Positions 1,814-47,593 of a stretch of 64,000 nt of DNA are shown piece by piece (position 1 is the stretch's first letter; the number at the start of each line of letters is the position of its first letter). This stretch comes from a virus: positions 26,549 to 90,548 of IMG/VR virus record IMGVR_UViG_3300027763_002499; one strand, written 5' to 3'. The notes beneath the pieces are model-generated. The model was not told where the DNA came from, made no database searches, and was given only the letters and a program-made list of their open reading frames with translations. The translations under genes were made by a program, and so were the position numbers.

Positions 1814-2152
1814 TTAAAATGGCATAGAAGGTGAAAAGCTACTGCCACACCCACATGTTGTTTGAGCATTTGGATTATCAATTACAAAGCGACTGCCTGT
1901 AATATCATCTTTAAAATCAATGACTGCTGAGGATAGATATTGCATACTCATTGAATCAACTAGAATCTTAACACCATCTTGTTCTAATTCAAAATCATCT
2001 TCGTTTTTTTCTTCGTCAAATGTAAAGCCGTACTCCATACCGCTACATCCACCACCTTGTACAAAGATACGTAATGGTAAGCTTGCATTGCCCTCATCAA
2101 TGGCAATTTCTCTAACTCTGTTGATTGCTGAATCTGTAATTTTAATTTGCAT
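1814..2152 (-). CDS. A-type iron-sulfur cluster carrier (IscA/ErpA/HesB family)
   Basis: A 112-aa protein with the full A-type signature: C36 in GGGCSGMEY and the C-terminal C100-x-C102 pair (TTCGCGSSF). These three cysteines hold a transferable Fe-S cluster in IscA and ErpA. The length matches the family. It would deliver clusters to Fe-S apo-proteins in the cytoplasm; the window encodes ten radical SAM enzymes that each need at least one [4Fe-4S] cluster, an attractive client set (inference). RBS AAGG 8 bases before the ATG. Confidence 0.9.
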
Positions 2153-7389: not shown

Positions 7390-7402
7390 TTAGTCCTCAC
7401 TA

Positions 7403-25933: not shown

Positions 25934-25964
25934 AAAATCCCCAAATTGGTTTAATATAAAGGTT

Positions 25965-25993: not shown

Positions 25994-25995
25994 GT

Positions 25996-26802: not shown

Positions 26803-26828
26803 TGGAAAATCCTTTAAAACGATACTTA

Positions 26829-28286
26829 TCAATATACTGGTATATTATGTAGATTTTGAAATTTCAGTGCATCATCCCAGGTGTTTACCAAGGGCTCACC
26901 TTTGATGTTAAGGCTTGTATTCATTAATACAGGACAACCGCTTTTTCTGTTCCACTCTTCCAATAATGTTCTAAAAGTTATATTGTCATCTTTTGATACA
27001 GTTTGCACCCTACTTGTTCCATCTACATGACAAACTCCAGGCAGTTCACCGCTGGTACACTTTGCTACAAACTGCATATAAGGACTAGAGGACACAGGCA
27101 TGTCAAAGTATGCACCAGCATGTTCTTTTAGTACTGCTGGTGCAAATGGTCTAAACTGTTCTCGCTTTTTAATAGCGTTCATTCTAGACTTGGCTTTGGG
27201 TCCACGCGGGTCACATAGTAGACTACGATTGCCTAACGCTCTTGGTCCAAACTCTGCTCTGCCATTTGCTACTGCTACTACTTCTCCTGCCTGTAGACGT
27301 TTGACCACAGCATCAATGTCAAGTTCACGTTCAATATCTGTGCCAAGATAAGGATGCTTCCATGTCAAGTGCTCTTTGGTATGTACGGCAACTGCTCCAA
27401 TAGCACTACCAGCATCACCAGGGTTAGGCATGATCCAAATGTTGTCAAAGACTTGACTGCGAGCAAGCCTAGCATTGGCAACACAATTTAATGCCACTCC
27501 CCCCATGAACACAAGATTTTTGCTCTTGATATTCATGCTCATACCAATTACAGTTTCTATCAGGTAATCTTCAACTATGCTCTGAACACATGCGGCAATA
27601 TCAAACTTATTGGTGTTTAATGGTGCAGTCCACCAACGACATCCGCGATGTAAGTTATGTCTTAGTTTAAAATCTGGTGCTTCAATATATTCAAAGAATT
27701 CATTCTTAATATGGTTTTTAAGAACTAGGTCAACAGAACCATATGCTGCCATGCCCATAAGAATGTATTCTTCTTCGTTGGGCTTTAGGCCAACATAATC
27801 AGTAAATGCTGTGTAAAACAATCCAATGCTATTGGGATAACGCTGTCGCCATTTACACTTTAATTTATTTGCCTGACCTTCCCAGATGCTAACAGTATCC
27901 CATTCACCAATGGCATCAACTACAAGTACTGCGGCATCACTGTATCCGCTTGTGTAGTATCCAGCTGCCGCATGACTATGATGGTGTCCAACAACCTCCA
28001 TTGGCAAATTATCCAACCCAACAAGTTTGAGTTGATCTTGAGGATTTACAATCCAAGGTCTTTGTCCCGAGTAAAGTCTACGCAAATTCTTAGACCAAGG
28101 CTTTTCAAACCATACAATTTGAGTTGGTTCGCCGTACTCACGCATTTCACGCACCATGTTAACATCTAACATAGTATCGTTTTTCTTTCTGCTATAGCGT
28201 TCGCTGTGCCCTGCCCAGAGTATTTTATCTCCATCAATCAGTGCCATACTGGCATCATGATTCTGGGCAGTGATACCCAGAATCAT
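26829..28286 (-). CDS. O-carbamoyltransferase (NodU/CmcH/TobZ family)
   Basis: A 485-aa two-domain carbamoyltransferase. The N-terminal Kae1-like domain shows MILGITAQNHDAS, HHHSHAAAGYY (metal-binding His), VVDAIGEWDT and MGGVALNCVAN; the C-terminal YrdC-like domain has FGPRALGNRSLL, FRPFAPAVL, CHVDGTSRVQTV and VLMNTSLNIKGEP. The family uses carbamoyl phosphate and ATP to carbamoylate hydroxyls of sugars or antibiotics. Slightly shorter than the usual 530-570 aa. It abuts the fused radical SAM gene with no gap, suggesting a tailoring role on the cluster's product. Confidence 0.92.
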   Translation of the reverse strand: MILGITAQNHDASMALIDGDKILWAGHSERYSRKKNDTMLDVNMVREMREYGEPTQIVWFEKPWSKNLRRLYSGQRPWIVNPQDQLKLVGLDNLPMEVVGHHHSHAAAGYYTSGYSDAAVLVVDAIGEWDTVSIWEGQANKLKCKWRQRYPNSIGLFYTAFTDYVGLKPNEEEYILMGMAAYGSVDLVLKNHIKNEFFEYIEAPDFKLRHNLHRGCRWWTAPLNTNKFDIAACVQSIVEDYLIETVIGMSMNIKSKNLVFMGGVALNCVANARLARSQVFDNIWIMPNPGDAGSAIGAVAVHTKEHLTWKHPYLGTDIERELDIDAVVKRLQAGEVVAVANGRAEFGPRALGNRSLLCDPRGPKAKSRMNAIKKREQFRPFAPAVLKEHAGAYFDMPVSSSPYMQFVAKCTSGELPGVCHVDGTSRVQTVSKDDNITFRTLLEEWNRKSGCPVLMNTSLNIKGEPLVNTWDDALKFQNLHNIPVY

Positions 28287-30356
28287 TTAAATACCCTTCC
28301 ACTTACTAACTGGAATGTCGCCGCCACAGTGGCAACGCAAACTATTACAGATAACCGGGCGAGAAAAACTGTCCCAATTAATTTTATCAAATTCTTTTAC
28401 AGAGCCAACAACACCGCCTACATCACAATTTCCACGTTTGATATGTCCATTTTGATGAATGAATAAACTTTCAGCACCAATGTTGCACAAGTAATCATAG
28501 AAGTTTGTCTGTCCTTTGTTGATTAGACCCTGAGGACTTGTTATGTTTTCAGTGGTGTTATCTTCAAAGGTTGCTTGGACAGGAGTTGCATGGAAATCTC
28601 TATATATTGGATTGGTTATTCTAATCAAATCAGCAGATGATCGACTTGGTGTTTCTTTAAATGTTTTAAAAAATTCAAGTTGTTCTTCGCTGTAATTAAT
28701 TTTAGCCAACTTGGTCCTGCTTGCACCATACTGGTCGTCGATATAAACAATTTCAATTTTAGCAGTAGTTTTCTTTTTAAGTTTTTCAATGAACTCTATA
28801 GATTTATCCCAATGCAACGGATCCATCATAATACGAGCCGCAACTTGAGTTTCTAAACTGGCAATTTTAATTTTTTCCAACCATTCATCTGCTGTACCAT
28901 TGGGAAACTCTTGTGCTGGATGAAAGCTACATGCCGCATAAGTCAGATATTTAAAATTATCTTTAATAAATCTTGGAGTACGCACAAGATTTGTAGTCAT
29001 ACCACCGGTACCACCAAGAGTGTGAATACGCTCAATCATCTCCGGGAAGAAAGGACTTAGCGTAGGTTCTCCACCGCTCAATGAAAATGTCAAATGCCGG
29101 TTCTTGCCATATTGTTCAAATAACCTGTCAAGGAAAGGAGAAACAACATCCCAGTTAAACAAATGGTTTTTTCCATCGTGTAATACTGGTGGGCAATACC
29201 TACAAGCATAATTACAAATGTCATTTAAGATCCAGGTAATGATTGCTTTGTCTTCATTCTTAATTTCAATGATCTTTTTAGCCTGGACTGGGATTGGAAA
29301 CTTCCACTGCGGAATACGTGCTCTTGGAGTTTTAAATGCTGAATGCATTTGTATGTTGTCAACAATCTGTACATCTTGGATGCTTTTAAATCTACTTAGG
29401 TCTTTCTTCAAGCCATGTGATGCAGAATATAATGTATCTCGTTGTTCACCTAGCATGTGCCCAATGCCCATATACCCATGGCGATTGTCTGGATGAGACC
29501 ATTTGTGTCCTTGTATGCCATCAATGTTTAATGCTTTGAATTTTTTATATTCATTTGTAAGTGTATATGGATCATAATCGTCATATACAAGATACGCGGC
29601 CATTTCATTAGACCATGTTTCCTGACGATAAAAGGCATTTTCGTCAACAGCTCGTTGGTCATTATCAGCAATAATGTGACTCATGTTTTTACCAAGAGTA
29701 TTATAGCCTAGTACCAAGTCGCCAAATCTAAGCCTGTGTAAAAAGCTGGCTGCATCCTCTTCGGTAATTTCAAAATCAATCCTTGGATTGAAACTGATCA
29801 AAATATTGGCAGCAGAATAACTAGGTTCCTTTTTGCCTGATCCTCTTTTTTTAATAAACATTTCAGCAGTGTGAATAGCATCGTTCAACTGAATGAATGT
29901 ACTGTGAAAATCCTCATTGAAGGTAATACCTGGCCAACACTTGGCTTCTGGGCTGTCTGCTGAAATGCGTTTATAAGCATCATCCCACCATTTTTGTGAT
30001 AGCTTTTCGCTTAGACGTTCACCATAAATCTCATATTCCTCGTGGAGGTAATTTAGTGCATCTTGATCGTGTTCTCGAAACATTGTCAATGGGCGGTCAT
30101 AAAAAAGATTAATTTTTCTAACAATATTACTCAAACGCTCATCAAGATCCAATCCTTGATAGGCCGCACTCCTTGTAAACTTAATGCGCTTTTCTCGAAA
30201 ACTTTTCTCTCCGTAACGCATGTCTTCCATGAGCTTGACCCATTTCTTGGCAAGATTGGTATTGTACAGCTTATAGTATATGTCAAAAGGTTCCCACGTT
30301 GTTGTATCAACAAGCGTGAGCCGTACGTTTTTGTCGTTTAGATATTTTCCGCTCAT
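28287..30356 (-). CDS. FGD-domain / radical SAM fusion protein
   Basis: A 689-aa fusion. Residues 1-300 form an unrecognised domain shared with the genes at 38499 and 32967 (LNYLHEEYE 101-109, QLNDAIHTAE 156-165, FGDLVLGYNTLGKN 211-224). Residues 370-560 form a radical SAM core: CNYACRYC with C381, C385, C388, and SLSGGEPTLSP. The C-terminus has further cysteines (CNIGAES, GNCDVGG, CNSLRCHCGGD) like a SPASM/twitch auxiliary-cluster region. It therefore likely holds extra Fe-S clusters. The fusion says the N-terminal domain works directly with a radical SAM enzyme. Substrate unknown. Confidence 0.82.
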   Translation of the reverse strand: MSGKYLNDKNVRLTLVDTTTWEPFDIYYKLYNTNLAKKWVKLMEDMRYGEKSFREKRIKFTRSAAYQGLDLDERLSNIVRKINLFYDRPLTMFREHDQDALNYLHEEYEIYGERLSEKLSQKWWDDAYKRISADSPEAKCWPGITFNEDFHSTFIQLNDAIHTAEMFIKKRGSGKKEPSYSAANILISFNPRIDFEITEEDAASFLHRLRFGDLVLGYNTLGKNMSHIIADNDQRAVDENAFYRQETWSNEMAAYLVYDDYDPYTLTNEYKKFKALNIDGIQGHKWSHPDNRHGYMGIGHMLGEQRDTLYSASHGLKKDLSRFKSIQDVQIVDNIQMHSAFKTPRARIPQWKFPIPVQAKKIIEIKNEDKAIITWILNDICNYACRYCPPVLHDGKNHLFNWDVVSPFLDRLFEQYGKNRHLTFSLSGGEPTLSPFFPEMIERIHTLGGTGGMTTNLVRTPRFIKDNFKYLTYAACSFHPAQEFPNGTADEWLEKIKIASLETQVAARIMMDPLHWDKSIEFIEKLKKKTTAKIEIVYIDDQYGASRTKLAKINYSEEQLEFFKTFKETPSRSSADLIRITNPIYRDFHATPVQATFEDNTTENITSPQGLINKGQTNFYDYLCNIGAESLFIHQNGHIKRGNCDVGGVVGSVKEFDKINWDSFSRPVICNSLRCHCGGDIPVSKWKGI

Positions 30357-30376
30357 AAAGTCCTCAAATAATGTTT

Positions 30377-31609
30377 TTATATATCAAGTAATCTGGCATG
30401 CGTTGTGCCATGTAATTCATCTAGCCCGTTTACATAATCCAACATTTGTGGATATAAATGGCTCCAATCTTCGCTATTCATAAATGATATTAGGCCTGTA
30501 AATCTAGAAACAAGTTTGTTATCAGGATGTTTATCTATATATTCTTGTAACTTCTTGGTAATTTTTTCTTTTTTGTCTGCAGGCAATGATTTAGAACACA
30601 GGTATGGTGGCCAGTGCAAAATGCCCAAGAAGAAAATGCCACCTTTATTGTCACGTTTAATCTTTTCCAAATCTAAACTCATCATCCAATCTGCAAACTC
30701 TGGCAACCAGTTAATGTTTAAGGCCTGCACTGTACACAGTACCTTGACATGAATGTTTTCTGGCAATTCACAGTAGGCCTTAAAGTTCTTTTCAATGGTT
30801 GCCCAATCGGCCGGATGACGAATATATGAGTTAACCCAATCGTATCCATCAATACTGAGCATGAGTTCTACTTTTTCAAAGTGTTCCCACAGCTCGACAA
30901 TTTCAGGACTATAAATTGTACAGTTGGTGTGATATCGCAATTCAATGTTCTTAGACAGTCCACTTTCAACCAAGCGTTTGATTAGTGTTTTGTGTTCTTT
31001 AATATAAAGAGGCTCGCCACCGCCAAATATAATATGTTTGATGTCTTTGGCATGTGTAAAGAAATCATCCCAGAATTCTTCATTTTTATACCATTCAAAC
31101 TTTTCACTGGCAAATGTTTCAATCTTATGCTTCCAATCATATCGAGCATCAGTTTGTAAACTATTGCTGAGTGTTTCTGCATCCTTGATCCACTTGCTGG
31201 AATCTTTGGGCCCACACATGACACATTGTAAATTGCAAGTATTACCTAGTCGTAGGTCCAAGGTTATAATGTCATGATTAACTGTGCCATTTTTGTTGGT
31301 GCCAGCAACTAAATTGTCAAGATATGTTGTGTCTAACTGTTGATACCAATAATGGTTTTCATTTTGTCTATGACTTTTAATACCATTTGCTTCTTCTTTG
31401 TAGCAGGCTTCGCAAGCAGGAAACTTACGACCGCCAAGCATGGCCAGTCTGGCTTCTGTAAAATGATTACTGTTCCATATCTTGGTCCAATTGCTTGTAT
31501 TTAAATTTAGACCACTGGTCTTGGCCACACAGCATAACAATGCTGAACCGTCGTTATAAGTTGCCGCATGTATCCATGGGAGAATACAAAATGTATCAGA
31601 TTTTACCAT
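30377..31609 (-). CDS. Radical SAM protein with N-terminal twitch (class A)
   Basis: A 410-aa radical SAM enzyme. The N-terminal cysteine-rich region has C8 in FCILPW, C26-C27 and C66-x-x-C69; the radical SAM triad is C125, C129, C132 (CNLQCVMC) and FGGGEPL binds SAM. Late blocks NCTI, SIDGYDWVNSYIRHP are shared with other class A copies. One [4Fe-4S] cluster generates the 5'-deoxyadenosyl radical and the N-terminal cysteines probably bind another cluster. Overlaps the next rSAM gene by 14 bases. Substrate unknown. Confidence 0.85.
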   Translation of the reverse strand: MVKSDTFCILPWIHAATYNDGSALLCCVAKTSGLNLNTSNWTKIWNSNHFTEARLAMLGGRKFPACEACYKEEANGIKSHRQNENHYWYQQLDTTYLDNLVAGTNKNGTVNHDIITLDLRLGNTCNLQCVMCGPKDSSKWIKDAETLSNSLQTDARYDWKHKIETFASEKFEWYKNEEFWDDFFTHAKDIKHIIFGGGEPLYIKEHKTLIKRLVESGLSKNIELRYHTNCTIYSPEIVELWEHFEKVELMLSIDGYDWVNSYIRHPADWATIEKNFKAYCELPENIHVKVLCTVQALNINWLPEFADWMMSLDLEKIKRDNKGGIFFLGILHWPPYLCSKSLPADKKEKITKKLQEYIDKHPDNKLVSRFTGLISFMNSEDWSHLYPQMLDYVNGLDELHGTTHARLLDI

Positions 31610-32900
31610 TAATGAAATCCACTATTCTCGAGTCAAGAACTGTATAGTCCTGTTTCCTTGCACTATCCAGGCTCTTGGTGTAAACTTGTAATCGTGCAAG
31701 TTGTTCTTGCCAATCTTCTGCTCTTGTTTGCTGTAGTAATCCTATTATACCATTAACGCTGTTCTTTGTCAAGTCATGAACATTCCATGGCATCTTTTTA
31801 TCTCTATAATCTGTTAACATTTTTAGAGCAGTGGCTCGCAGACTATCTGGTAGTATGTTCACATTCAAATGATGTGGATGTATGTTGATTAATAAATCAA
31901 CAAATATCTTCTTACTGTATTTCTTGTTAAGTTCGTCAACCCAGGTCAGTGTCTCGACTAAATTAAATACATTGTAAACTTGTACCGTTGGAGTAACGCC
32001 TAGCTTAATGTTAGGTAATGCGGCTAGTTTTTCAACATTGACTTTGAGCTGGCTCCATTTGCTAGGAGGACGAATGTATTCGTTGACAGCACCAATGCCA
32101 TCAAGACTTGCGTTAATGTTAATTTCATCAAATTGGCTAATCAAGTCTGTAAACTTTTGATTTACGTTTGTACAGTTGGTATTAAAGAATAACAGTATAT
32201 CCTTTCTGCCTTGATCAATACACTCCTGCATAAACTTAAAGTTATGCTCAATCAATGTAGGCTCTCCGCCTGTCATGTAAACTTTTTTAAGATCTGGAAT
32301 TAATTTTATAACCTGGTCCCAAAGCAAATCGCTTTCAAACCATTCCTGGTTCTTCATTACAGCTTCGGGGAACTTGCCAAATGTCTTGCCCCAAACCTTA
32401 CTATACTCGCTGTCTGCAATTACAATGTCCTTGTGTTCTTTAGCAATCTGACTAGAGTTCCAGGGATTGCACATGCGGCATTTTAAATTGCATAGATTGC
32501 CTAATCGCAGGTCTAGATATACAATATCCTTGTTTACTACGCCTCCGTTCATCTTGGCAAATCTTACTCGTTGTTGTAGTTCCTCTTCTCCGAGACGCCA
32601 AGCCCATTCATTGTTGGCATGCATGCGATTGCTTTCACGACCTGATTCCTCTTGTAGGTAGCATGTACTGCAACCCTCAACCCGATCACCTTGTATCATA
32701 GCAGTACGAATGTCTCGCATGTCTTTGCCATTCCATGCGTGTTCTATAAACTGGTCCTGGATTGTAAAAAATTTACCATCTTCTTTTTTGAGTTTGTTAG
32801 CAGAACCCTTTACCATACAGCAATAACGAACTGTGGTATCGGTATTCACCATCATACTAACAAACGGGATGGCACAAAATGTATTTGAAATTGGTTTCAT
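31596..32900 (-). CDS. Radical SAM protein with N-terminal twitch (class A)
   Basis: A 434-aa paralogue of the gene at 30377: C9 in FCAIPF, C27-C28, C77-x-x-C80, core triad C137, C141, C144 (CNLKCRMC) with TGGEPTLIEHNF, NTNCTN and SLDGIGAVNEYIRPP. The C-terminus ends RIVDFINGKI. Lies after a 66-base gap containing a perfect palindrome, the largest gap in the cluster, and lacks a good Shine-Dalgarno site. Confidence 0.85.
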   Translation of the reverse strand: MKPISNTFCAIPFVSMMVNTDTTVRYCCMVKGSANKLKKEDGKFFTIQDQFIEHAWNGKDMRDIRTAMIQGDRVEGCSTCYLQEESGRESNRMHANNEWAWRLGEEELQQRVRFAKMNGGVVNKDIVYLDLRLGNLCNLKCRMCNPWNSSQIAKEHKDIVIADSEYSKVWGKTFGKFPEAVMKNQEWFESDLLWDQVIKLIPDLKKVYMTGGEPTLIEHNFKFMQECIDQGRKDILLFFNTNCTNVNQKFTDLISQFDEININASLDGIGAVNEYIRPPSKWSQLKVNVEKLAALPNIKLGVTPTVQVYNVFNLVETLTWVDELNKKYSKKIFVDLLINIHPHHLNVNILPDSLRATALKMLTDYRDKKMPWNVHDLTKNSVNGIIGLLQQTRAEDWQEQLARLQVYTKSLDSARKQDYTVLDSRIVDFINGKI

Positions 32901-32941
32901 TAAACTAAGATTTAACTTTAATAGCTTTACTTAGTGGTTTT

Positions 32942-32965
32942 AGACTGGGCAGATCTGCCCAGTCT
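32942..32965 (-). terminator. Perfect palindrome inside the radical SAM operon
   Basis: Two 12-base arms (AGACTGGGCAGA / TCTGCCCAGTCT) with no spacer, giving a stable hairpin with a 4-base loop. No U-run follows on the minus strand, so it may attenuate, process or stabilise mRNA rather than terminate. It also encodes part of a 21-codon mini-frame in another reading frame. Confidence 0.55.
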
Positions 32966-32966
32966 T

Positions 32967-34463
32967 TCAAGATGTGCGAGATTCTTCTTGAGTAACTTGG
33001 TCTCGCCAAGTGTAATTTAGTACCTTGCTTGCAATTGTGTTGTTATTAAAATCAACCAATTCCATCTTGTAAACATCATCATAGTTAAACAGATCGAGCA
33101 TGATACTTTCGGTACTATCGCTGGAATCCCAATCGCTTCTTATTATTTGAGCCACTGGGATTTTACCAATGCTGGTAAACTTACTTTCTGGATCAACATT
33201 TCTTTCTCGTAACCAAGGAAACATTTTGTTGTTTAAATTATTAATAACTTGCGTTTGTAAATCACGGCTATGTTCTTTTAAGAACATTACATTACATTCA
33301 CCGCTAAGGTAACGTAAACCACTTATATTCTCATCGTGGATCTCGCCATCTTTGTCGTGATAGGCTTCAATTGGTGTTTTTCCAAGTTGGCAATAGTGTA
33401 AAAATACATCACCAAAAAATTCATATTGTGTAAAATTGTCAAAGTCGCTTTCAACGAATTTGTAACGCCTGACTGGCATTGCAGGGAAAAAAACATAAGA
33501 ACTCCAGAATCCTTGTCCAATTTTGTTTTGTCTGCAACCTTCTATTTCATGACATAGGTTATTGAGTTGTCTAATTGCAAACATCACGGGCAATGTTGCA
33601 TTGGCAAAATACTTGGCTGGATTCCATACTTGCCCTATCAATAGCTCAAAGTGATGATGAATCTCATTAAGAATCTGTTGATCCAGTGTTACAGGATCAA
33701 AGAATTGTGTAATGTTATATAACGGGCGTTTTTCTTCATCACTACCGTCAAAGTATTCATTGATTGTGTTTACATACTTGTTTAATTCACTGCACAATGC
33801 TGGTATATTTCTTGCAACAGGACTGTTATCTGGGTACTGCCAATTTTGCAACATAAAATTCTTTTCAAATGTAGCATTGTCATCTGCCAAATAGTCATTG
33901 TGACAGCATCTTGCCCATTTTTGTGCAATAAAAGATGTATTAATTCTAAACCTTACTTTTTTTGTTTGGTTGTTGGCAACTGACCTGAAAGTCAATTGAA
34001 ATTCATTGTAATTGGTATTCTTATATGCATTGCCGATTTTTTCTACGGTAGAACCATCTGTGGTAATTTCTGAACTAAACAATCTGGCCTGGCGCACCTG
34101 TTCAACATGGTCATAGTCTGCCAACCAAAGAAAGTTGTTTACATGGCATTGAGATTCTAGGTCATCAAAAAATTCCCGGCTGTCAGCAATAAAGAAAGAC
34201 TTGTATATACTGTTACAATATGCCCAAAATTCGTCAAATTTCTCCCTGCTGTTGAAATAATGAATTAGGTTATCAACTTTGCCGTTGGGACTTGCCAACG
34301 CTTCTTTAATAAAGTTGATTTCACTTTCAGCATCGCATAAAAAAATTAAACGAGTATTTGAGGCCTTTTGCAAGGTTGCAAAAGCCAACAGTCCGGGTAA
34401 AGATATACCATAGACATAATAGTTTTCAACATAGGTTTCGGGATTTGTAAATTGTGTCAGCAT
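32967..34463 (-). CDS. Unknown protein carrying the FGD domain
   Basis: A 498-aa protein. The first 150 residues are a separate alpha/beta-like part (YVYGISLPGLLAF, FFIADSREFFDDL, FLWLADYD). Residues 150-420 share the domain of the genes at 28287 and 38499: RFRINTSFIAQKW, ILNEIHHHFELL (264-275), QLNNLCHEIE (299-308) and FGDVFLHYCQLGK (350-362). No cysteine cluster or known catalytic motif is seen. It may recognise or hold the substrate for the neighbouring radical SAM enzymes (inference). Confidence 0.7.
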   Translation of the reverse strand: MLTQFTNPETYVENYYVYGISLPGLLAFATLQKASNTRLIFLCDAESEINFIKEALASPNGKVDNLIHYFNSREKFDEFWAYCNSIYKSFFIADSREFFDDLESQCHVNNFLWLADYDHVEQVRQARLFSSEITTDGSTVEKIGNAYKNTNYNEFQLTFRSVANNQTKKVRFRINTSFIAQKWARCCHNDYLADDNATFEKNFMLQNWQYPDNSPVARNIPALCSELNKYVNTINEYFDGSDEEKRPLYNITQFFDPVTLDQQILNEIHHHFELLIGQVWNPAKYFANATLPVMFAIRQLNNLCHEIEGCRQNKIGQGFWSSYVFFPAMPVRRYKFVESDFDNFTQYEFFGDVFLHYCQLGKTPIEAYHDKDGEIHDENISGLRYLSGECNVMFLKEHSRDLQTQVINNLNNKMFPWLRERNVDPESKFTSIGKIPVAQIIRSDWDSSDSTESIMLDLFNYDDVYKMELVDFNNNTIASKVLNYTWRDQVTQEESRTS

Positions 34464-34466
34464 AGA

Positions 34467-34568
34467 TTAATAGATAAATGGGTCACGCTTTTTCAGCTCT
34501 TTGAGTCGTTTTCTGTAGCGAATTTCGCCTTTGATTTTTTCAATAATATTTTTAATAAAATTCCACAT
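34467..34568 (-). CDS. 33-aa basic helical peptide gene
   Basis: A 33-codon gene (MWNFIKNIIE..., ending RDPFIY) with a good RBS (AGGAAGAAACACA) before the ATG, 3 bases ahead of the FGD-domain gene and 11 after the SGNH gene. The peptide is an amphipathic basic helix (about 12 Lys/Arg) with an aromatic C-terminus. Being a short gene among radical SAM enzymes, it is a candidate substrate peptide, but a structural or membrane role is equally possible. Confidence 0.65.
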   Translation of the reverse strand: MWNFIKNIIEKIKGEIRYRKRLKELKKRDPFIY

Positions 34569-34579
34569 TGTGTTTCTTC

Positions 34580-35470
34580 CTATAGTGAATATTTGGAGAC
34601 AAAGTAATTATACACATTGTCGGCTGCTATATCGTGTATATATTCCATGACATGGCCGCCGATCCTGGCCACTGCCTTGTTTGCATCTTGTTTTTTTGCA
34701 ATATCTTCTAAGTCTATTAGGTAGCCAATATCTAATTCTTTGTAAAGCTGTTGTATTGCCCAATTTATTGATGATGGCGGTTCTCTAGATCCTGCCAATT
34801 CAACTAACCAATCTGGGGCCATTTCGGTGACTGATCTTACAAAATACAGTTCAATCCCTTTGCTTTGGCAAAATGTTTTTAGCAATAAATTAGAAAGCAA
34901 CCACTTGTGTAACCGCACATCTTCATGTTCGTGCATTATCGCAGTTTTGCGTATAGCATCAATTTGTGTACCAGTGCGAGCAGGTTCATTGCTTAACAAA
35001 ATAGAAGACCAATAATTAACTGTTTCGTTAAAGTATTGAATCCTATTGACACTGGTAGTTCCAATTAAGAAAATTACTCGTTTGCCTTGTGTTCGCCCGT
35101 GTTTTGTTTCGTTTAAGTATTGGTCAATAATTTCTCTGTTGATCCATTCTTGGCTTGCACCACCGCATGCATAATTATGTACAGTACATTTCACACCAGG
35201 GTGGTTAGAAAGTCTCATTGCAATTTTAGCAGGATAGGCCCTGTTACGGTTTTCGTTCATTAGACTATCTTGTTGTTCCCGGGTAAGTTTGGTATTATTT
35301 TTACGTTGAAACCACGCCTTTACCATATTCTGTCTATTTACTTTGTTGTCAATTCCTCGCCACTCATTGAACGTTATATCTTCATGACCAACATTGGTGT
35401 AAAATAAATCATCAGACAGCTCTTCGCCAGCTGTAAAGCTATCACCACATGCAAAAATTACTATTTCCAT
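34580..35470 (-). CDS. SGNH/GDSL-like hydrolase (copy 2)
   Basis: A 296-aa protein with block I ACGDSFTAGEEL (Ser 11), block II NYACGGASQEW (Gly), block III-like VIFLIGTTSVNRIQYF (Asn) and a C-terminal GGHVMEYIHDIA giving the Asp/His pair. SGNH enzymes deacylate or de-esterify sugars and lipids, and some relatives transfer acyl groups. Cytoplasmic (no signal peptide). About half of its residues match the adjacent copy at 35485, a clear tandem duplication. Confidence 0.78.
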   Translation of the reverse strand: MEIVIFACGDSFTAGEELSDDLFYTNVGHEDITFNEWRGIDNKVNRQNMVKAWFQRKNNTKLTREQQDSLMNENRNRAYPAKIAMRLSNHPGVKCTVHNYACGGASQEWINREIIDQYLNETKHGRTQGKRVIFLIGTTSVNRIQYFNETVNYWSSILLSNEPARTGTQIDAIRKTAIMHEHEDVRLHKWLLSNLLLKTFCQSKGIELYFVRSVTEMAPDWLVELAGSREPPSSINWAIQQLYKELDIGYLIDLEDIAKKQDANKAVARIGGHVMEYIHDIAADNVYNYFVSKYSL

Positions 35471-35484
35471 TTAATTCTCTTGCT

Positions 35485-36372
35485 CTATAATGAATACTTA
35501 GCAACAAACTCGTTGAAGATTTTATCAGCAGCCATATCATGTATGTATTCTACAAAGTGGCCGCCGGGTTTGACAATATGAGCATTTTCATCTTGTTCTT
35601 TGGCAATGTCTTCTAAGTTTATTATATAATTAATGTCTAGTTCATCAAACAGAGATACAATAGACTGTCCAATAAAAGATTGTTTCTCGCCAATTGCAAT
35701 AGGGTTGACCAAGTTTTCAGGACCAAATACTGACCTTACAAAATATAAATCAATGCCTTTACTCTGACAAAATGTTTTTAGTAGTAGATTACAAAGCAAC
35801 CACTTGTGTAAACGTGCATCTTCATGTTCGTGCATTATTGCAGTTTTACGTATATCATTAATTTGAGGTGTGATGCTATCTGTTATGTGCAACATAATAG
35901 AAGACCAATAGTTAACCGACTTACTGGTACTAAAATATTGAATCCTATTAACATAGGTAATGCCAACTAGAAAAATTACTTTTCTGCCCTGTGTTCTTCC
36001 GTGTTTTGTTTCATGCAGGTACTTGTCGATAATTTCCCTGTTTATCCATTCTTGTCCTGCGCCGCCTGCGGCATAATTGTGTAACACACATTGACCATTC
36101 AATTTTTCAGATAGTTTTGTATATAATTTAGCAGGATAAGCCCTTCTTAAATTCTCTGCTTCTAGATTATATTTCTGCTCTGCGGTTAGTTTGTGATTAT
36201 TTTTATGCTGGTGAATTGCTTGTATACGTAACGTATTACTTTTTTGACTTTCAGGATCTATCCATTCTTGATGTGTAAGATTACCAAGTCCCGAATCGGG
36301 GTAAAACATATCATCGGCCAACTCATCACCAGCAGTAAAACTATCGCCACAAGCAAAAACTACCAGTTCCAT
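35485..36372 (-). CDS. SGNH/GDSL-like hydrolase (copy 1)
   Basis: A 295-aa tandem paralogue of the next gene: ACGDSFTAGDEL (Ser 11), NYAAGGAGQEW, VIFLVGITYVNRIQYF and GGHFVEYIHDMAAD. The block HEHEDARLHKWLL and LLLKTFCQSKGI are nearly identical in both copies while the regions at 30-60 and 215-245 differ, suggesting diverged substrate preference. No signal peptide. Confidence 0.78.
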   Translation of the reverse strand: MELVVFACGDSFTAGDELADDMFYPDSGLGNLTHQEWIDPESQKSNTLRIQAIHQHKNNHKLTAEQKYNLEAENLRRAYPAKLYTKLSEKLNGQCVLHNYAAGGAGQEWINREIIDKYLHETKHGRTQGRKVIFLVGITYVNRIQYFSTSKSVNYWSSIMLHITDSITPQINDIRKTAIMHEHEDARLHKWLLCNLLLKTFCQSKGIDLYFVRSVFGPENLVNPIAIGEKQSFIGQSIVSLFDELDINYIINLEDIAKEQDENAHIVKPGGHFVEYIHDMAADKIFNEFVAKYSL

Positions 36373-36375
36373 GAT

Positions 36376-37113
36376 TTACATTATTGCTTTTAAACTATCT
36401 AATACAATTTGATTGAATGGATCGCGGGCACCGCCATGACTGATCATGTGAATTCTAGGTGTGTCACTGTTGTTCCAGACTGAGTGCAGGTTTCCAATAT
36501 CTACCAAGCAGGCATTGCCTTCATTTTTAAAAGGAACATAACCCTTGCCTTCCATTTTAAAATTACAACCCGCTGGATTGTTCAATGCTACATTAATTGG
36601 CAACAAGAAGTGTTCATTTCGATCCTTATGTGGCTGAATGTAACCGTGTGGATCTAACCACATGTAACGTAGTCTGTGATATCTGTGATTTGGAAACACA
36701 TCGAGGAAGTATCTTGTTGTTTCGGGACAACGTTCGGTTATCTCGCCGCACCAATGATAATTGATATCATCAATGGTTTTACCTTTGTTATCTTCATATG
36801 CTTCCCAATGTCCAGTTCTGTCCCAGGCCTCACCATGCAAACAAATACTCTTCCATCCTTTATTTGCATATTCTGGGTTTTCATTTGGATGTGTTCTGTG
36901 CATCTGGAAAAGATCTTCCATGGCAAATGCTTCACGCAACATGTCTGCAAACGGTGCACCTGGAAGAATCAGTGGCAAGTAAGGCCACCCACTTTTCATA
37001 ATGATCCAATCAACCAATTCATGTTCATGCTCAAACTTTGGTAATTCTACTTTTTTAAAATCCATGGTCCATGGACTATCATTGAAAAATTCTACAATTG
37101 CTTTTGGTATCAT
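36376..37113 (-). CDS. Asp/Asn beta-hydroxylase-like 2OG-Fe(II) oxygenase
   Basis: A 245-aa protein whose C-terminal half fits the aspartyl/asparaginyl beta-hydroxylase cupin: LRYMWLDPHGYIQPHKDRNEH (His and HxD iron ligands), VALNNPAGCNF and the distal NLHSVWNNSDTPRIHMISH with His and the 2-oxoglutarate Arg. It would hydroxylate a peptide side chain or small molecule using O2 and 2OG. The start is set by an ATGA overlap with the upstream gene; the frame runs 19 codons further but inside that gene. Confidence 0.8.
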   Translation of the reverse strand: MIPKAIVEFFNDSPWTMDFKKVELPKFEHEHELVDWIIMKSGWPYLPLILPGAPFADMLREAFAMEDLFQMHRTHPNENPEYANKGWKSICLHGEAWDRTGHWEAYEDNKGKTIDDINYHWCGEITERCPETTRYFLDVFPNHRYHRLRYMWLDPHGYIQPHKDRNEHFLLPINVALNNPAGCNFKMEGKGYVPFKNEGNACLVDIGNLHSVWNNSDTPRIHMISHGGARDPFNQIVLDSLKAIM

Positions 37114-38495
37114 TTTATTACATTTCCTAGGTGTGTCCAACCAGATATGCCAGAGCTTGTTGTTCCACATACTTGTATGCTGGTATTATTTAATCGTAGT
37201 TCCTGTGAAAAAGAATCATACACTGACTTTAACCACGCTGGTTTAAAGTGGCGTAGGCTTGCCTCAGTGTAGAAACTATTACTGAACCAAATTAAATTAT
37301 TGCCTGGATGTTGACGCATATCAGCAATCAATTCACTGCGATCGTAATACAGGTTAGTCTTTAAGAATCTATGCTCAAGTGCTCTGTATCTGTTCCATAT
37401 GTCTAACCAGGCGGATTCTCCGCCAAATACTGCAATGGTTTTTTCCCACTCAGGAGTGTAGTCTTTTTGTGCAAACCAAATTGGTCTAAACCCTGGATCA
37501 ACATTGTTGATATAATGTTGTATAATGCCCAGATAATCACGCCCGTCCCAGTTCTTTAATAACCATTCTTTAAATGCCAGTGCTGAGTCACTATAATCAA
37601 AATATATCACTCTGGTAGTCGAATCCCATTTGCATTGGTCTAAGAATTGAATTGGCTTAAAACCTGCCGCAACACAATACAAATTGTCAAGTTTGGTTGT
37701 CTTATCATAAGCAATATTGTCTGGCGTCATTGGGTCTGTGTTAAACACATAAACACTGCCTTGGAATCCAGAAAAATCCATCATGCTAATATAATTCTTT
37801 TGATTGTATTCCACTGGCTCCACTGATGTGTCGCCATCTAAAATACGCTCAAGTTCAGTGCCTACTTCTGGATAGAAGTGCTGTTTAAACTTTCTAATTT
37901 CTTCTGGGAAATTGCCAATGCCAAATCCATGCTTTAGTACTTCACTTGCAAGATTCCAACCTTCTCTAAGTTGTCCGGTAAATTGTCTTGTTTCATTGGT
38001 AGGTAAAATATAAAAAGGCGTGTACCCATCGTGGAAGTCTTCACTGCTACGCTGTACCTTTGGTAGAGTTACATTGTTGACTGTGTCATGATTACCCCAA
38101 AAAGGACTGCCGCTTTGTCTCCAATGATTCAAGTTGATCAATACACATTGATTATGTAAGGAATAAAAGCCTTGCTCTTTATCGGTGGGATTATCTTCTA
38201 ATATGTGTGCTAATACACTGTAATTATTACCTTCAGCATGTTTAATCATGCTTTCAACCAGGCGAGGGTCATAGCTTCTATACCCATAAGCAACAATGTA
38301 GAGATAATCATCATCTGTTAAACGAACAGAATTGAGTATTGAGTCTATTGTATCGGCAACAAGTAAATCGCCAGTGTGTTGATTTGCCATTGTCAATTGT
38401 AAGGATACTGCAAAGTCAGTGATGGCCCTGACATGATCTTGATAGCCTTGTGACCTGTTGGCTATTTGATTAAAAAGTCCAAATTTAATTTTCAT
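37110..38495 (-). CDS. Unknown 461-aa protein of the radical SAM cluster
   Basis: A soluble 461-aa protein with no family I can name. The N-terminal half has an alpha/beta pattern with SVLAHILEDNP, SLHNQCVLINLNHW and SPFWGNHD, slightly reminiscent of glycosyltransferase-like folds; the second half has KLDNLYCVAAGFKPI and RVIYFDYSDSALAFKEWL, like a Rossmann unit. No cysteine motif. Tightly packed between the hydroxylase (4-base overlap) and an FGD-domain gene (3-base gap). Confidence 0.55.
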   Translation of the reverse strand: MKIKFGLFNQIANRSQGYQDHVRAITDFAVSLQLTMANQHTGDLLVADTIDSILNSVRLTDDDYLYIVAYGYRSYDPRLVESMIKHAEGNNYSVLAHILEDNPTDKEQGFYSLHNQCVLINLNHWRQSGSPFWGNHDTVNNVTLPKVQRSSEDFHDGYTPFYILPTNETRQFTGQLREGWNLASEVLKHGFGIGNFPEEIRKFKQHFYPEVGTELERILDGDTSVEPVEYNQKNYISMMDFSGFQGSVYVFNTDPMTPDNIAYDKTTKLDNLYCVAAGFKPIQFLDQCKWDSTTRVIYFDYSDSALAFKEWLLKNWDGRDYLGIIQHYINNVDPGFRPIWFAQKDYTPEWEKTIAVFGGESAWLDIWNRYRALEHRFLKTNLYYDRSELIADMRQHPGNNLIWFSNSFYTEASLRHFKPAWLKSVYDSFSQELRLNNTSIQVCGTTSSGISGWTHLGNVIK

Positions 38496-38498
38496 GAT

Positions 38499-39443
38499 TT
38501 ACTCTATTAGTCTTGCGGCAGAAATTTTGCCCAATTCAAAGATTTCGTTTACTTCGTCATACGTTACTTCATCTCTATTTACTAGCTGTCCCAGTAATGG
38601 TCGTGCCACTGCTTGATTTTCTGGCAATGACATATCAACATACTCATTGAGTTCGTTATCATCTACCCACTTGATTAAGTCTTCTAACACTAACTTTGAG
38701 TGGCCTTCATACTGTGGTTGTCTAATGGTTTCTGAAAATGATAATATCACTTCGTTACTAATTGTACGCTGTGGTCTAATCATATTTTTCTTAACTAAAT
38801 CAATATCGTTGTCAACATAGCAATGATAAATGTTTTTGCCAACTGTATGATAACCCAATAATAGATCACCAAATACTACATCATGCAAGAAATATTCATA
38901 TAGTGAGGGGTCTGTAATTTCTTCTACATGAATTCCTGCAACGACACCTTCATTATGACTGGCATGTAAGAAAAAACCTGCAAGTAAATCGTTACCATAA
39001 CTGTTTAGCATTGTTTCCAAAACATGAATATCAACGTTTAATCTGATCAAAGGATCATATTCTACTAATATTCCGTTAAGTTGTTCTTCAAATCTATGAA
39101 ATTCATAGTGTAAGTAATTTAAAATTTGACGGTTATTTCTAGTTTCATCAAATTCCTCCGGCATGTCAATAAAATCAACCTGAATGTACTTTCCGGAATT
39201 GGCTTCATCTACTAACCGTTTCATCTCTTTCCATAAAGCACTAATTTTTTCCTTGGATGCTGAACTGGCAATCCACTGATTTTCAAAAATGTGGCAGTCT
39301 GGATGAGATGTTACCCAACGTACACGCTCTAACCATTTCTGACTAACTGGAGTATCTACAATTTGATAACGCAGTGTTTTTGTAACTTCACCGTCGGTAA
39401 AGTCAATTTCATAAAATTTATCTAATAAGTTATAAGTCGTCAT
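38499..39443 (-). CDS. Stand-alone FGD-domain protein
   Basis: A 314-aa protein consisting mainly of the shared domain: TLRYQIVDTPVSQKW (24-37), ILNYLHYEFHRFEEQL (107-121), RLNVDIHVLE (134-143) and FGDLLLGYHTVGKN (191-204) followed by a DND. The same blocks occur in the same order in the rSAM fusion at 28287 and in the gene at 32967. It overlaps the upstream rSAM gene by 14 bases, so the two are probably made together and may form the split equivalent of the fusion. Confidence 0.7.
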   Translation of the reverse strand: MTTYNLLDKFYEIDFTDGEVTKTLRYQIVDTPVSQKWLERVRWVTSHPDCHIFENQWIASSASKEKISALWKEMKRLVDEANSGKYIQVDFIDMPEEFDETRNNRQILNYLHYEFHRFEEQLNGILVEYDPLIRLNVDIHVLETMLNSYGNDLLAGFFLHASHNEGVVAGIHVEEITDPSLYEYFLHDVVFGDLLLGYHTVGKNIYHCYVDNDIDLVKKNMIRPQRTISNEVILSFSETIRQPQYEGHSKLVLEDLIKWVDDNELNEYVDMSLPENQAVARPLLGQLVNRDEVTYDEVNEIFELGKISAARLIE

Positions 39444-40686
39444 TTAAATGTCCATAGATATCAATTTTACTTATATCCTTGTTTCGTCGTTGTGCAAACT
39501 GCTTGATGAAAGAGAGAAAGTCCTTGGCCAGCGCCGTTTGGTTAGGTGCTTCACGCACATCAAGCAAGGTTAAAAGTCTACTGTAGCGATTTGTCTCATG
39601 TTCATTAAATTGCGGAAGCAGTCTTGCAAATACCTTTTCATACTTGTTGTAGTATTGATCAATTGACATTTGATCTAGTATTTTGAAACTTTGAAACTCA
39701 GGGTAGGTTAAAAAGTTAAAGTCAATTGAGATAGGTGTACGCATGCCTTGTCGGAGACGTATTATATCTTCTAAGAATTTATCAAAGTTTTGTAAACACA
39801 TTGCGCCAATTGTGGTCATTACAAATATATGATCAAGTCCGGCATCATCTAAGAATTTGATGTTATCAAGCCACTCTTGATAGTTCATACCATCTCGCAA
39901 AATTTCTGCAACATGATCTGCGCTTTCATTGCTGGTATAGATAGATACTTGCTTGATACCTTTAATTTTTTCTTTGAATCTTTCTAGTACCAGTGGCTTC
40001 TGACAGAGGTTAGAATTAATTGCAATCTTAACATTGGGATTCTTGGTACGCACTCGGTCAAGCAAATCAAAAGTTTGCTCATGTAACAATGGTTCGCCTC
40101 CAGTGATGCGAATAATATCAATATTATCTACAACTGTATCAAACCAGGCCCAGAATAGATCAAAGTCAACTGAATTATCCTTGTACTGCTCTATTGGTCT
40201 CTGATAGTGTTTGCGAGCATCTGTTGTGATATTCTCATAAACACCATTGTTCCTAATATCATTTGCCCACTGCGAGCTAAAGTCAGCATTACAGTAAGAG
40301 CAACCTAGGTTACAGGTCTTTTGGAAGGCCAATTCTAATACCTTGGGTTTAAAATTAAAACCAGGGTCTAGGTAATTTTCTGGAGTCAGGTGATCAGGGT
40401 AACTGACAGATTTATATTCCCTGTCACTGGTTAATCCTTGTGCTTCCAATTTCCAGCAGTAGTTGCAAGGCTCTGGTTTTTCACCTGCAAGCATGGACTT
40501 TTGCTGGTTGCGTTTGTCTGTTGTGTTATAAAAAGTTTCAACAGTTGAACCAGTGCTGTGGAAGGGGTTATGATGGCAACTGGCAATTTTACCACTGTAC
40601 AACCAAATTGTTGCTTCGTGAAATTTAGCCATACAAAATGTATTGCTAGTGTTTGCCCACAATTTTTCTAATTCTATTTTTTGCAT
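39430..40686 (-). CDS. Radical SAM protein, CHH-type N-terminus (class B)
   Basis: A 418-aa radical SAM enzyme: C18 in FCMAKF, CHH at 37-39 (ASCHHNPFH), C74-x-x-C77 (CNYCWKLE), TSDR, core triad C125, C129, C132 (CNLGCSYC), and ITGGEPLLHE. The C-terminal FAQRRNKDISK corresponds to the Q-x-D-x-RRNKNF motif of its class B relatives. Class B copies replace the CC pair of class A with C-H-H, implying a differently ligated auxiliary site. Confidence 0.85.
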   Translation of the reverse strand: MQKIELEKLWANTSNTFCMAKFHEATIWLYSGKIASCHHNPFHSTGSTVETFYNTTDKRNQQKSMLAGEKPEPCNYCWKLEAQGLTSDREYKSVSYPDHLTPENYLDPGFNFKPKVLELAFQKTCNLGCSYCNADFSSQWANDIRNNGVYENITTDARKHYQRPIEQYKDNSVDFDLFWAWFDTVVDNIDIIRITGGEPLLHEQTFDLLDRVRTKNPNVKIAINSNLCQKPLVLERFKEKIKGIKQVSIYTSNESADHVAEILRDGMNYQEWLDNIKFLDDAGLDHIFVMTTIGAMCLQNFDKFLEDIIRLRQGMRTPISIDFNFLTYPEFQSFKILDQMSIDQYYNKYEKVFARLLPQFNEHETNRYSRLLTLLDVREAPNQTALAKDFLSFIKQFAQRRNKDISKIDIYGHLNDDL

Positions 40687-42035
40687 TATTGACCTGTAAT
40701 CATTGGCTTCAAGTCTATATATTCAGGAAAGACCTCAAAGAAATCTTCTTTTCTATTATTATCAAGCCACAATTCTCTTCGCCAGCCTGCTGTTATTAAA
40801 TTATTAAACTTTGCAGGATTCTTTAAGATATCAATTGCACTTTGGTATCCCTGAATCGCATTGTGTAAATTTGAGCTTGTGGGATTTTCTGTATCAGCAA
40901 ATGTCGATAGCCATTTAATTTGCTCTTCGTACAATTCAGTTAGCTTGGCTTTGTGATGGTCTGGCAGGTTGGAAATACACCAGTGTTCTGGACCAAACAA
41001 TAGGTTAACAATAATGTCGCCTGGTCCAACATATCCAAGGTTGACCCATTCTCTGTGAAAATCAACAATATTATATGCTGTCATTATGCTTAACGTTGCA
41101 CCAATGATAAACTTCACATGCGGAACCTCAGCAATCATTCGTTCTCTGTTTTTAACTACCTGTTCCCATGACAAATTTTTACGAGCATATTCTCCTCTTT
41201 TATAACTGCCGTCAAGACTGGCCGAAACTGTTACCCTCTTAAATTTTTTCCAATACTCAATGACATCAAATTTTGAATGAGTCAACTTGCTAAAATTTGT
41301 ATTGTAAAAAATGTCAATGTCGGTGTTTCCTAGTTCTAAGAAATAATCTAAGATTTCGTAATGCTGAGGCATAATTAACGGTTCGCCGCCGGCAAAGTAA
41401 ATTCTATGGCAGCTTCTTAGATTTTGTTTAAGACTCTCAACAGACACGTCGGCTTTGTGAAATCTGGTCAGGTTATTATTGACTATGATTTTTTTCTCAA
41501 CCATTTCTAGCTCTTCAGGATACCACGTTGAGCTATATTCTGGACCACATGACCTGCATCTTAAATTGCAAGTGTTATCAAACCGCACATCTAGGTAATT
41601 AATCTCAGGTTCGTCAACTGTGTAATCTTCGGCGACTGCATTGCGAATAGTTTCACCAACTTCCCACTGATCCATCCATCCTAGCATTGCATGTCGCATA
41701 CTATGAGTATTAACTGCTTCGCCCTTCCAGCAATATTCACATTGTGAATTTTTAACTCCGTTTAGCAGATCCTTACGCAGGTCTTTAAAAGACTTGGTAT
41801 TATATGCATTGACAATATCCTTGTTTGTTGAACCTTCAATTTTAGATCGTGGTTCACCTGTACCGTATTTGTCGCCAGACTTGGGTGCCCTATGCACACA
41901 ACAGGCACCTAAACTGCCGTCTGTATGGATATAATAAGAGTTAAATGGTGCTGGACAAAATGTACCATTTGTTTTAATTTTCTCCCATTCTGCATCTGTA
42001 AATTCTAATTTTTTAGTCATTGTCATTTGTCTCAT
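40686..42035 (-). CDS. Radical SAM protein with N-terminal twitch (class A)
   Basis: A 449-aa enzyme: C27 in FCPAPF, C45-C46 (LGACCVHRA), C99-x-x-C102 (CEYCWKGE), core triad C156, C160, C163 (CNLRCRSC), FAGGEPLIMP, NTNFSKL and SLDGSYKRGEYAR. Residues around 99-105 (CEYCWKGE) look class B-like, so it may be an intermediate form. Ends WRRELWLDNN...FEVFPEY. Overlaps the upstream rSAM gene by 23 bases; the start could be either of two nearby ATGs. Confidence 0.83.
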   Translation of the reverse strand: MRQMTMTKKLEFTDAEWEKIKTNGTFCPAPFNSYYIHTDGSLGACCVHRAPKSGDKYGTGEPRSKIEGSTNKDIVNAYNTKSFKDLRKDLLNGVKNSQCEYCWKGEAVNTHSMRHAMLGWMDQWEVGETIRNAVAEDYTVDEPEINYLDVRFDNTCNLRCRSCGPEYSSTWYPEELEMVEKKIIVNNNLTRFHKADVSVESLKQNLRSCHRIYFAGGEPLIMPQHYEILDYFLELGNTDIDIFYNTNFSKLTHSKFDVIEYWKKFKRVTVSASLDGSYKRGEYARKNLSWEQVVKNRERMIAEVPHVKFIIGATLSIMTAYNIVDFHREWVNLGYVGPGDIIVNLLFGPEHWCISNLPDHHKAKLTELYEEQIKWLSTFADTENPTSSNLHNAIQGYQSAIDILKNPAKFNNLITAGWRRELWLDNNRKEDFFEVFPEYIDLKPMITGQ

Positions 42036-44572: not shown

Positions 44573-44573
44573 A

Positions 44574-47536: not shown

Positions 47537-47556
47537 TTGTGTGCTTAGATAAAATG

Positions 47557-47585
47557 ATAATGATACTTATCATGCAAAATGTCAA
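47557..47585 (-). promoter_or_regulatory. Likely promoter of the radical SAM operon
   Basis: TTGACA (47585-47580), 17-bp spacer, CATTAT (47562-47557). The -10 is imperfect (4/6), weaker than the other promoters, which may keep this long operon at low expression. An overlapping TATCAT lies at a shorter spacing. Confidence 0.6.
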
Positions 47586-47593
47586 GGGTTTAT

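Follow-up and report, generated by a model that had tools for sequence, protein, structure and literature searches.

A previously uncatalogued phage domain family linked to radical SAM enzymes and its possible role in substrate recognition

A shared domain in three proteins of a radical SAM gene island

A 64,000-nucleotide stretch of viral DNA (positions 26,549 to 90,548 of the 90,548-base IMG/VR record IMGVR_UViG_3300027763_002499; henceforth the window) carries an island of radical SAM genes, within which three proteins appear to share a common region, in one case joined to a radical SAM core. What is this region, and does it act together with radical SAM enzymes? A sequence-only reading had described four shared blocks in the three proteins, recognized no family in them, and proposed that the region partners a radical SAM core directly, perhaps as a substrate binder or as a carrier. 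We confirmed the three open reading frames on the minus strand and use FAM as the name of the domain family defined here, which is common to all three proteins and falls into two subfamilies (see below):

28287..30356, minus strand: p689 fusion (689 residues), with FAM of subfamily II at about residues 9-308, a radical SAM core at 377-539 and a Cys-rich C-terminal end
32967..34463, minus strand: p498 (498 residues), with an N-terminal region at about residues 1-145 (Rossmann-like) and FAM of subfamily I at about 152-469
38499..39443, minus strand: p314 (314 residues), a free FAM of subfamily II

By direct reading, all four blocks are present in the same order in p314, p498 and p689: the first as VSQKW, IAQKW and LAKKW; the second as LNYLHYEF, LNEIHHHF and LNYLHEEY; the third as RLNVDIHVLE, QLNNLCHEIE and QLNDAIHTAE; and the fourth as FGDLLLGYHTVGK, FGDVFLHYCQLGK and FGDLVLGYNTLGK, followed by DND, DKD and DND, respectively. 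The three regions represent one domain, their pairwise local alignment scores exceeding every one of 300 shuffles per pair: 89 for p314 and p498 (shuffle maximum 56, z 10.0), 139 for p314 and p689 (57, z 18.2) and 94 for p498 and p689 (53, z 12.0). Searches with phmmer connect p314 directly to p689 (E 1.8e-11), and p498 is linked via a p314 relative from a second virus, L001 (E 1e-4). Exactly three FAM copies are recovered from the entire virus record by the family profile A6 (E 1.6e-111, 1.6e-74 and 1.0e-64).

Gene fusion and gene neighborhoods connect FAM to radical SAM enzymes

The C-terminal half of p689 matches the radical SAM model PF04055 over residues 377-539 (31.8 bits against a cut-off of 29.5) and displays the CxxxCxxC motif as CNYACRYC by direct reading; it is a radical SAM protein by this measure and falls outside the twitch-domain family NF033640 (16.4 bits against a curated cut-off of 170). 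The p314 gene in turn overlaps the radical SAM gene at 39430-40686 by 14 bases, as had been pointed out from the sequence. The fusion of FAM to a radical SAM core is found in two viruses, namely that of the window and L001. The strongest single item comes from the virus record G002 (L284), in which a divergent FAM gene standing on its own (5492-6415) shares 20 bases (TTG start as called) with a free radical SAM gene (6396-7409) related to the radical SAM half of the window fusion (E 3.9e-53), with a second radical SAM gene coming after it. The occurrence of two gene types as a fusion in one virus and as adjacent genes in another is a classical sign of joint action. The same three genes are found in a different order in G003 (L286), where FAM adjoins the second radical SAM gene and lies one gene from the relative of the fusion core, and in G009 FAM is accompanied by the second radical SAM gene only.

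The association extends to cultured jumbo phages of rhizobial hosts. The protein AUZ94948.1 of the Agrobacterium phage Atu_ph07 is encoded next to one radical SAM gene, with another one small gene further, and XYS97442.1 of the Sinorhizobium phage Phosso, which is 28.5% identical to it, has the same radical SAM setting. Compared with the FAM profile using hhalign, the Atu_ph07 protein alone yields E 5e-5, and the two proteins as a pair yield E 4.8e-6 (probability 86%). It was a structural match that led to the Atu_ph07 relative, and searches starting from the latter then led to the Phosso protein: a 300-residue Atu_ph07 protein, A0A2L0UZJ4, which its length and genome suggest is AUZ94948.1, is hit by each of the two FAM models (E 2.7e-9 and 3.9e-10). 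Superpositions of the structural matches are poor despite the strong E-values (template modeling score 0.30-0.50, root-mean-square deviation (rmsd) 15-16), and direct FAM profile searches of the Atu_ph07 record gave no match. With this reserve we regard the two proteins as remote FAM relatives, aligned too weakly for judging conserved residues.

Among 60 FAM gene rows, 27 lie at most two genes from a radical SAM gene, including the two fusions; this count omits fifteen loci as repeats or near copies, excludes Phosso, and enters Atu_ph07 at distance 5, though Pfam puts a radical SAM gene next to it (L284-L286 are second sites of included records). All 17 subfamily II rows of the tree described below are within three genes of a radical SAM gene. 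At the level of whole records, 17 of the 25 that bear FAM have radical SAM matches at E <= 0.001 (16 of the 17 over the Pfam cut-off; up to fourteen matches per record), as against 2 of 26 FAM-less controls (1 over the cut-off), with the FAM set being mixed (mostly the longer records of 41 distinct sources, the window among the 41) and the controls belonging to one phage type (records of at least 15 kb among 80 kept of at least 600 matches to one tail sheath protein). The nine FAM records whose islands comprise at least three radical SAM matches are all positive, as are eight of the remaining 16, often with the match far from FAM. Thus, a direct tie between FAM and radical SAM enzymes is borne out by the fusions, the G002 and G003 gene clusters, the rhizobial jumbo phages and the excess of co-occurrence.

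Extent of the family

Relatives of FAM were detected in dozens of viral loci. The first close relatives came from viral contigs, after which 42 loci were reached via conserved stretches of the p498 type and three via those of the p314 type. A profile built from 15 members then matched 53 open reading frames in the loci collected up to that point, including repeats of one contig. Profile A6 holds 43 rows (31 of subfamily I and 12 of subfamily II) and matches 15 of 15 chosen FAM records and none of the 26 controls; since the window and those 15 records supplied rows to it, this result shows consistency, not discovery. Each virus record was treated as a possible fragment, the pairs L027/L028 and L032/L033 are near duplicates, and the 22 loci L031-L052 are close relatives that count as few events.

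That FAM matches no known family is confirmed by the database searches. No Pfam family reaches its cut-off, neither PHROGs nor the PDB searched by sequence provides a convincing match, and the family profile, searched to E 10, matches no chain of known structure. We took the weak matches encountered as chance: the Pfam models TniB (E 0.074, to p314) and HECW_N (E 0.083, to the L005 member), phrog_19393 (E 0.074, to the N-terminus of the fusion), and the PDB entries for Exportin-1 (E 0.055) and a transthyretin-like protein (E 1.9). A single scan, made with patterns of subfamily I only, covered 84,980 cellular genomes and gave 152 pattern matches, none of which was confirmed; it reaches close relatives only. 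Against GenBank phages, tblastn with p314 returned nothing beyond 22 chance rows (E 0.8 to 9), and the members from L036, L005, L008 and L027 gave no match. Together, these comparisons support FAM as a previously uncatalogued domain family, seen so far only in phages.

Two subfamilies with different conservation patterns

A tree of 42 rows separates 25 p498-type rows (subfamily I; support 100/99) from 17 others (subfamily II), with open forks and a long-branch warning. Subfamily I is strikingly uniform (p314 numbering throughout): N82, N109, H112, E116, N136, H140, E143, Y198, D213 and E231 are identical in all 31 of its A6 rows, and K203 is kept in 30, with Arg in one. In subfamily II, N109, H112, N136, H140 and E143 are kept in eight of the 12 rows, and the set is partly lost in the other four. 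Among the eight retaining rows, five, including p314 itself, have His in place of E116, and one is without E231. The viruses carry one to four FAM copies per record, and a subfamily II copy directly precedes a subfamily I copy in five contigs (L003, L004, L023, L025 and L027).

The conserved histidines and acidic residues had earlier been thought to leave a metal site possible. This is not supported for the fusion: the L001 fusion, the closest relative of that in the window (57% identical in the FAM domain), has Asp, Tyr, Asp and Thr at the positions of N109, H112, E116 and H140. As it has neither histidine, a metal site formed by them is not fixed in the fused form, and we rejected a conserved metal site as a general feature of that form.

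Predicted fold

Confident AlphaFold2 models were obtained for p498 (predicted local distance difference test (pLDDT) 89.2, predicted template modeling score (pTM) 0.89) and p314 (pLDDT 85.8, pTM 0.84). All nine structural matches of p314 with E <= 0.001 recur among the ten found with p498, and are uncharacterized viral proteins; as most rows are common to the two underlying alignments, the models are not independent. Two of the three domains, modeled from a largely common alignment, are predicted to have related folds, and no search assigned the family to an ordinary class of enzymes.

Among solved structures, cyclophilins make up most of the best matches of p314 (the top one at Z 8.9 and rmsd 3.9, with 144 of 166 residues aligned). 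Over the cyclophilin matches, 133-146 residues are aligned at Z 7.5-8.9; by title, the non-cyclophilins among the 50 rows are 7zfm, 6hix, 2wlw, 9cf0, 9k87 and 6yxx. Most of these matches run from about residue 2-10 to residue 314, yet only about 140 residues are aligned, a pattern that fits a barrel with a large insertion. In the model, helices at 64-82, 104-122 and 130-147 place this insertion at about residues 60-149, and it is within these helices and the segment 198-231 that the conserved polar residues mainly lie. We tentatively describe p314 as a predicted cyclophilin-like barrel with an inserted helical part, tentatively because Z-scores at this level may reflect a common arrangement alone. 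At the sequence level, the family profile finds no solved cyclophilin to E 10, and no cyclophilin appears among the Pfam matches of five FAM members to E 5, in a search whose filters drop most matches above 0.1. The structure search with whole p498 was dominated by its N-terminal region (best Z 7.6), which is judged Rossmann-like from these matches, and hence conveys little information on FAM.

The surrounding genes and other fusion partners

All ten PF04055 matches in the virus record of the window lie in this island, and seven of the ten exceed the Pfam cut-off. The genes around the three FAM copies, together with a gene from the start of the window, are:

1817..2152, minus strand: gene of the Fe-S (iron-sulfur) cluster carrier family (PF01521; 80.1 bits, cut-off 26.3; E 1.0e-23)
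26829..28286, minus strand: NodU-like carbamoyltransferase (PF16861, PF02543)
30377..32900, minus strand: pair of radical SAM genes, both over the cut-off, separating the fusion from p498
34580..36372, minus strand: two similar proteins of about 295 residues, probably SGNH-type (Pfam E 0.038 for one only)
36376..37170, minus strand: aspartyl/asparaginyl beta-hydroxylase family protein (PF05118, E 9.2e-12)
37110..38495, minus strand: 461-residue protein with no family match, residues 72-415 of which resemble the region preceding FAM in proteins of 749-766 residues (L003, L004, L023)
39430..48856, minus strand: seven radical SAM genes, four over the Pfam cut-off and three weaker

The two free radical SAM genes tested against NF033640, at 45944-47536 (317.2 bits) and 39433-40686 (259.1 bits), are members of that family. 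The Fe-S carrier could plausibly supply the Fe-S enzymes of the island. The two proteins of about 295 residues show by eye an N-terminal GDS motif, which we take to be of the SGNH type. Past the carbamoyltransferase, at 24791-26832, are a nuclease-like open reading frame of 278 residues and one of 400 residues with FG-GAP-like repeats, both recognized by eye.

FAM is also joined to regions other than radical SAM cores. The N-terminal part seen in p498 is extended in L003, L004 and L023 to give the aforementioned proteins of 749-766 residues; the 461-residue protein of the window matches this extended region (hhalign E 9e-9) more clearly than the p498 N-terminal region alone (E 0.011, probability 4%). 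In L026, a FAM copy is combined with a C-terminal part bearing a kinase-like motif by eye, for which there is no Pfam match. Such unlike fusion partners, and the several copies per virus, fit a shared recognition part.

Several further neighbors recur in related loci. A protein of 227-232 residues resembling SGNH/GDSL enzymes (PF00657 E 0.017; partly by eye) is encoded directly beside the stand-alone FAM in 13 loci (L046:3088-3774, with relatives in L031-L033, L041, L043-L045 and L047-L051); SGNH-like genes are present in the window island too. Fe-S carrier and IscU-type genes are carried by G002, G003 and G009, and at L284, L285 and L286 these genes (PF01521 and PF01592, respectively) are found within a few genes of the divergent FAM and radical SAM genes, as are genes that look ClpP-like by eye and match one another in phmmer. 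In L025, the radical SAM/FAM island is followed downstream (L025:10993-13458) by ribulose-phosphate 3-epimerase and SIS genes over the cut-off and an NTP-transferase-like gene below it, which suggests sugar-nucleotide chemistry in that virus.

Candidate functions of FAM

FAM is one family with two subfamilies, and it is fused or adjacent to radical SAM enzymes in several lineages. Our tentative preference, held with some doubt, is that it is a phage-borne substrate-recognition module of a radical SAM modification pathway. FAM would bind a moiety that all substrates of the island have in common and present it to the radical SAM and other tailoring enzymes. The moiety would be held by the near-invariant N82, N109, H112, E116, N136, H140, E143, Y198, K203, D213 and E231, which may form one pocket. 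Subfamily I (the p498 type) would be the conserved binder, and subfamily II (p314 and p689) would comprise diverged duplicates that, fused to or docked on a particular radical SAM core, hand the substrate over to it. The hydroxylase, carbamoyltransferase and SGNH-like neighbors might decorate the same substrate, be it a virion protein, a peptide or a glycan. Binding, presentation and the common substrate are all features that we infer.

Several observations weigh against this proposal. Subfamily I also occurs stand-alone in myovirus contigs, between small terminase and endonuclease genes (shown for L007, whose genes PHROGs identifies as tail sheath stabilizer, terminase and tail sheath; the T4-like label for L006-L011 is a reading of gene order). 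The 22 loci L031-L052 each have a single, inverted FAM gene. In neither setting does a radical SAM gene lie within two genes. Where distances from stand-alone copies to a radical SAM gene could be given, they are two genes (L020), seven (L032/L033) and eight (L007/L011), and the other stand-alone loci have no radical SAM gene within the stretch examined. Plain adjacency is weak evidence in a ten-gene radical SAM island, in which any gene lies near a radical SAM gene. No C-terminal tail that might mark a common substrate is shared among 486 FAM-island proteins; the sole six-residue stretch common to otherwise unrelated C-termini, AEELAK (two pairs), was taken as chance. Finally, strict conservation is equally typical of an active site and of a binding site. 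The partner role proposed in the sequence-only reading therefore holds for the link with radical SAM enzymes and is incomplete as an account of the whole family: as subfamily I is found without a radical SAM gene close by, partnering these enzymes is probably not the sole role of FAM.

We consider an alternative nearly as likely, and a serious contender: subfamily I could be an enzyme of the same pathway, with an Asn, His, Glu, Asp, Tyr and Lys site, catalyzing one step before or after the radical SAM reaction, and subfamily II could be its partly or wholly inactive paired paralogs. This would agree with the ten polar positions being identical in 31 of 31 subfamily I rows as against retention of the Asn/His/Glu set in eight of 12 subfamily II rows, with the tandem II-I order in five contigs, reminiscent of enzyme/pseudo-enzyme pairs, and with the stand-alone copies lacking radical SAM genes nearby. 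However, we recognized no enzyme family or catalytic motif and can name no reaction, and most of the residues in question are retained in those same eight subfamily II rows.

The fold raises the further idea that FAM is a cyclophilin-type folding helper (a peptidyl-prolyl isomerase or chaperone) for the radical SAM enzymes or for a virion protein. The predominance of cyclophilins among the top matches of the p314 model speaks for it, but Z-scores in this range can mean a mere common arrangement, and there is no sequence relationship to cyclophilins. Moreover, as the conserved polar residues are mainly in the inserted helices and the segment 198-231, the conserved pocket need not be the cyclophilin site, and we deem this idea improbable. 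Equally improbable is that FAM is a virion or host-takeover protein merely traveling with variable gene islands, which would account for stand-alone copies beside head and tail genes in myovirus contigs and for the inverted single genes of L031-L052, but not for the fusion, the overlapping pair with the same type of radical SAM gene and the recurrence in remote jumbo phages.

A Cys-His tail protein in the jumbo phage cassettes

The Atu_ph07 and Phosso cassettes hold, in addition to the FAM-like gene, a protein ending in CHxSCHxSCHxSRSRR. Proteins with such a C-terminus, CHxSCHxSCHxSR(G/S)RR, are encoded at L057:18119-19009 (Atu_ph07), at L058:14221-15141 (Phosso) and in most of L059-L203; they are 67-309 residues long as called (median 179, some cut by contig ends), and their cassette contains cupin, SPASM-type radical SAM and unknown proteins along with further radical SAM genes. 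Two further cultured jumbo phages also encode them, with cupin and radical SAM genes as neighbors: Burkholderia phage FLC6 (gp72, L289:7072-7632) and Pseudomonas phage pPa_SNUABM_DT01 (L290:7025-7561, ending in CHSARGRR). The annotations listed for FLC6 include cupin, Fe-S oxidoreductase and radical SAM (PMC8066314).

A scan with the tail pattern, which fixed the C, H, S and most R positions but neither the final Arg nor the exact stop nor the radical SAM neighbor, found at least 120 stretches in viral contigs and 25 in cellular contigs. Among the matches listed, a stricter protein pattern ends exactly at the stop codon in 117 of the 120 viral loci and 11 of the 25 cellular ones; in L139, one of the three remaining viral loci, the tail is one Arg short and the pattern sees no stop. 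There are at least 125 distinct tail proteins. Radical SAM genes of the Atu_ph07 and Phosso kind were present in 94 of 128 stop-ending loci. Once queries from a second cassette type are added, 110 of the 121 loci in which a tail gene was called have a CxxxCxxC match no more than three genes away, both counts again being among the matches listed; the second type is a weak radical SAM call (PF04055 E 0.031, below the cut-off, for one protein and no match for the other). In five picked loci, a large open reading frame beside the cassette matches a tail fiber family. Publications containing CHSSCH or SRGRR, among the matches listed, deal with other subjects by their titles and the starts of their abstracts. 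The Cys-His tail looks like a radical-SAM-modified virion protein tail.

No FAM was detected by A6 at E 0.01 in the 145 tail-scan loci, in which the Atu_ph07/Phosso profile finds Atu_ph07 alone, and the tail motif is absent from 20 FAM records and from the record of the window. A protein of about 370 residues from the tail cassettes was considered as another FAM and rejected (hhalign E 0.28 and 0.34). Being devoid of FAM except for the remote Atu_ph07 form, the tail loci constitute a separate lead rather than the function of FAM. The shared cassette of the FAM-like gene and the Cys-His tail protein in Atu_ph07 and Phosso is nevertheless what raises a broader scenario, which we consider rather unlikely: that the islands are phage-encoded machines chemically rebuilding a virion protein, with FAM as a new substrate-recognition module for them.

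Relation to known systems and implications

Islands of this kind have precedents in marine phages. A-type Fe-S carriers are reported from T4-like marine environmental genomes, one of which, of 183 kb, has an ATC gene and 12 radical SAM genes (PMC5332604), comparable to the ten PF04055 matches and the PF01521 carrier gene in the record of the window; the available text of that paper names neither the domain, nor the fusion, nor a function of the island. Likewise, pelagimyophages, which are marine myophages, have radical SAM cassettes as variable islands in their host recognition cluster (PMC7029224), a resemblance to the present case; the portion of that source at hand mentions no partner domain or island function. 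The accessible parts of PMC9301287, PMC8066314 and PMC10783043 have nothing on FAM. Searches of the open literature returned no paper joining cyclophilin, radical SAM, fusion and phage, and none joining radical SAM, tail fiber, post-translational change and marine phage.

The RRE and PqqD domains are small peptide-recognition domains that, either fused or separate, work with radical SAM peptide maturases. FAM differs from them in size and apparently in predicted fold, and it has no Pfam match over the cut-off; no PqqD-type model is among its Pfam matches. From cyclophilins it is distinguished by the insertion of about 90 residues in p314 that holds much of the conserved set. The Atu_ph07 cassette differs from the record of the window in having the Cys-His tail protein.

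To our knowledge, the known small recognition partners of radical SAM enzymes belong to few fold families. The overlapping gene pair of G002 and the natural fusion offer ready constructs for biochemistry, and a radical SAM partner known only from phages would raise the question of what viruses use such costly chemistry for.

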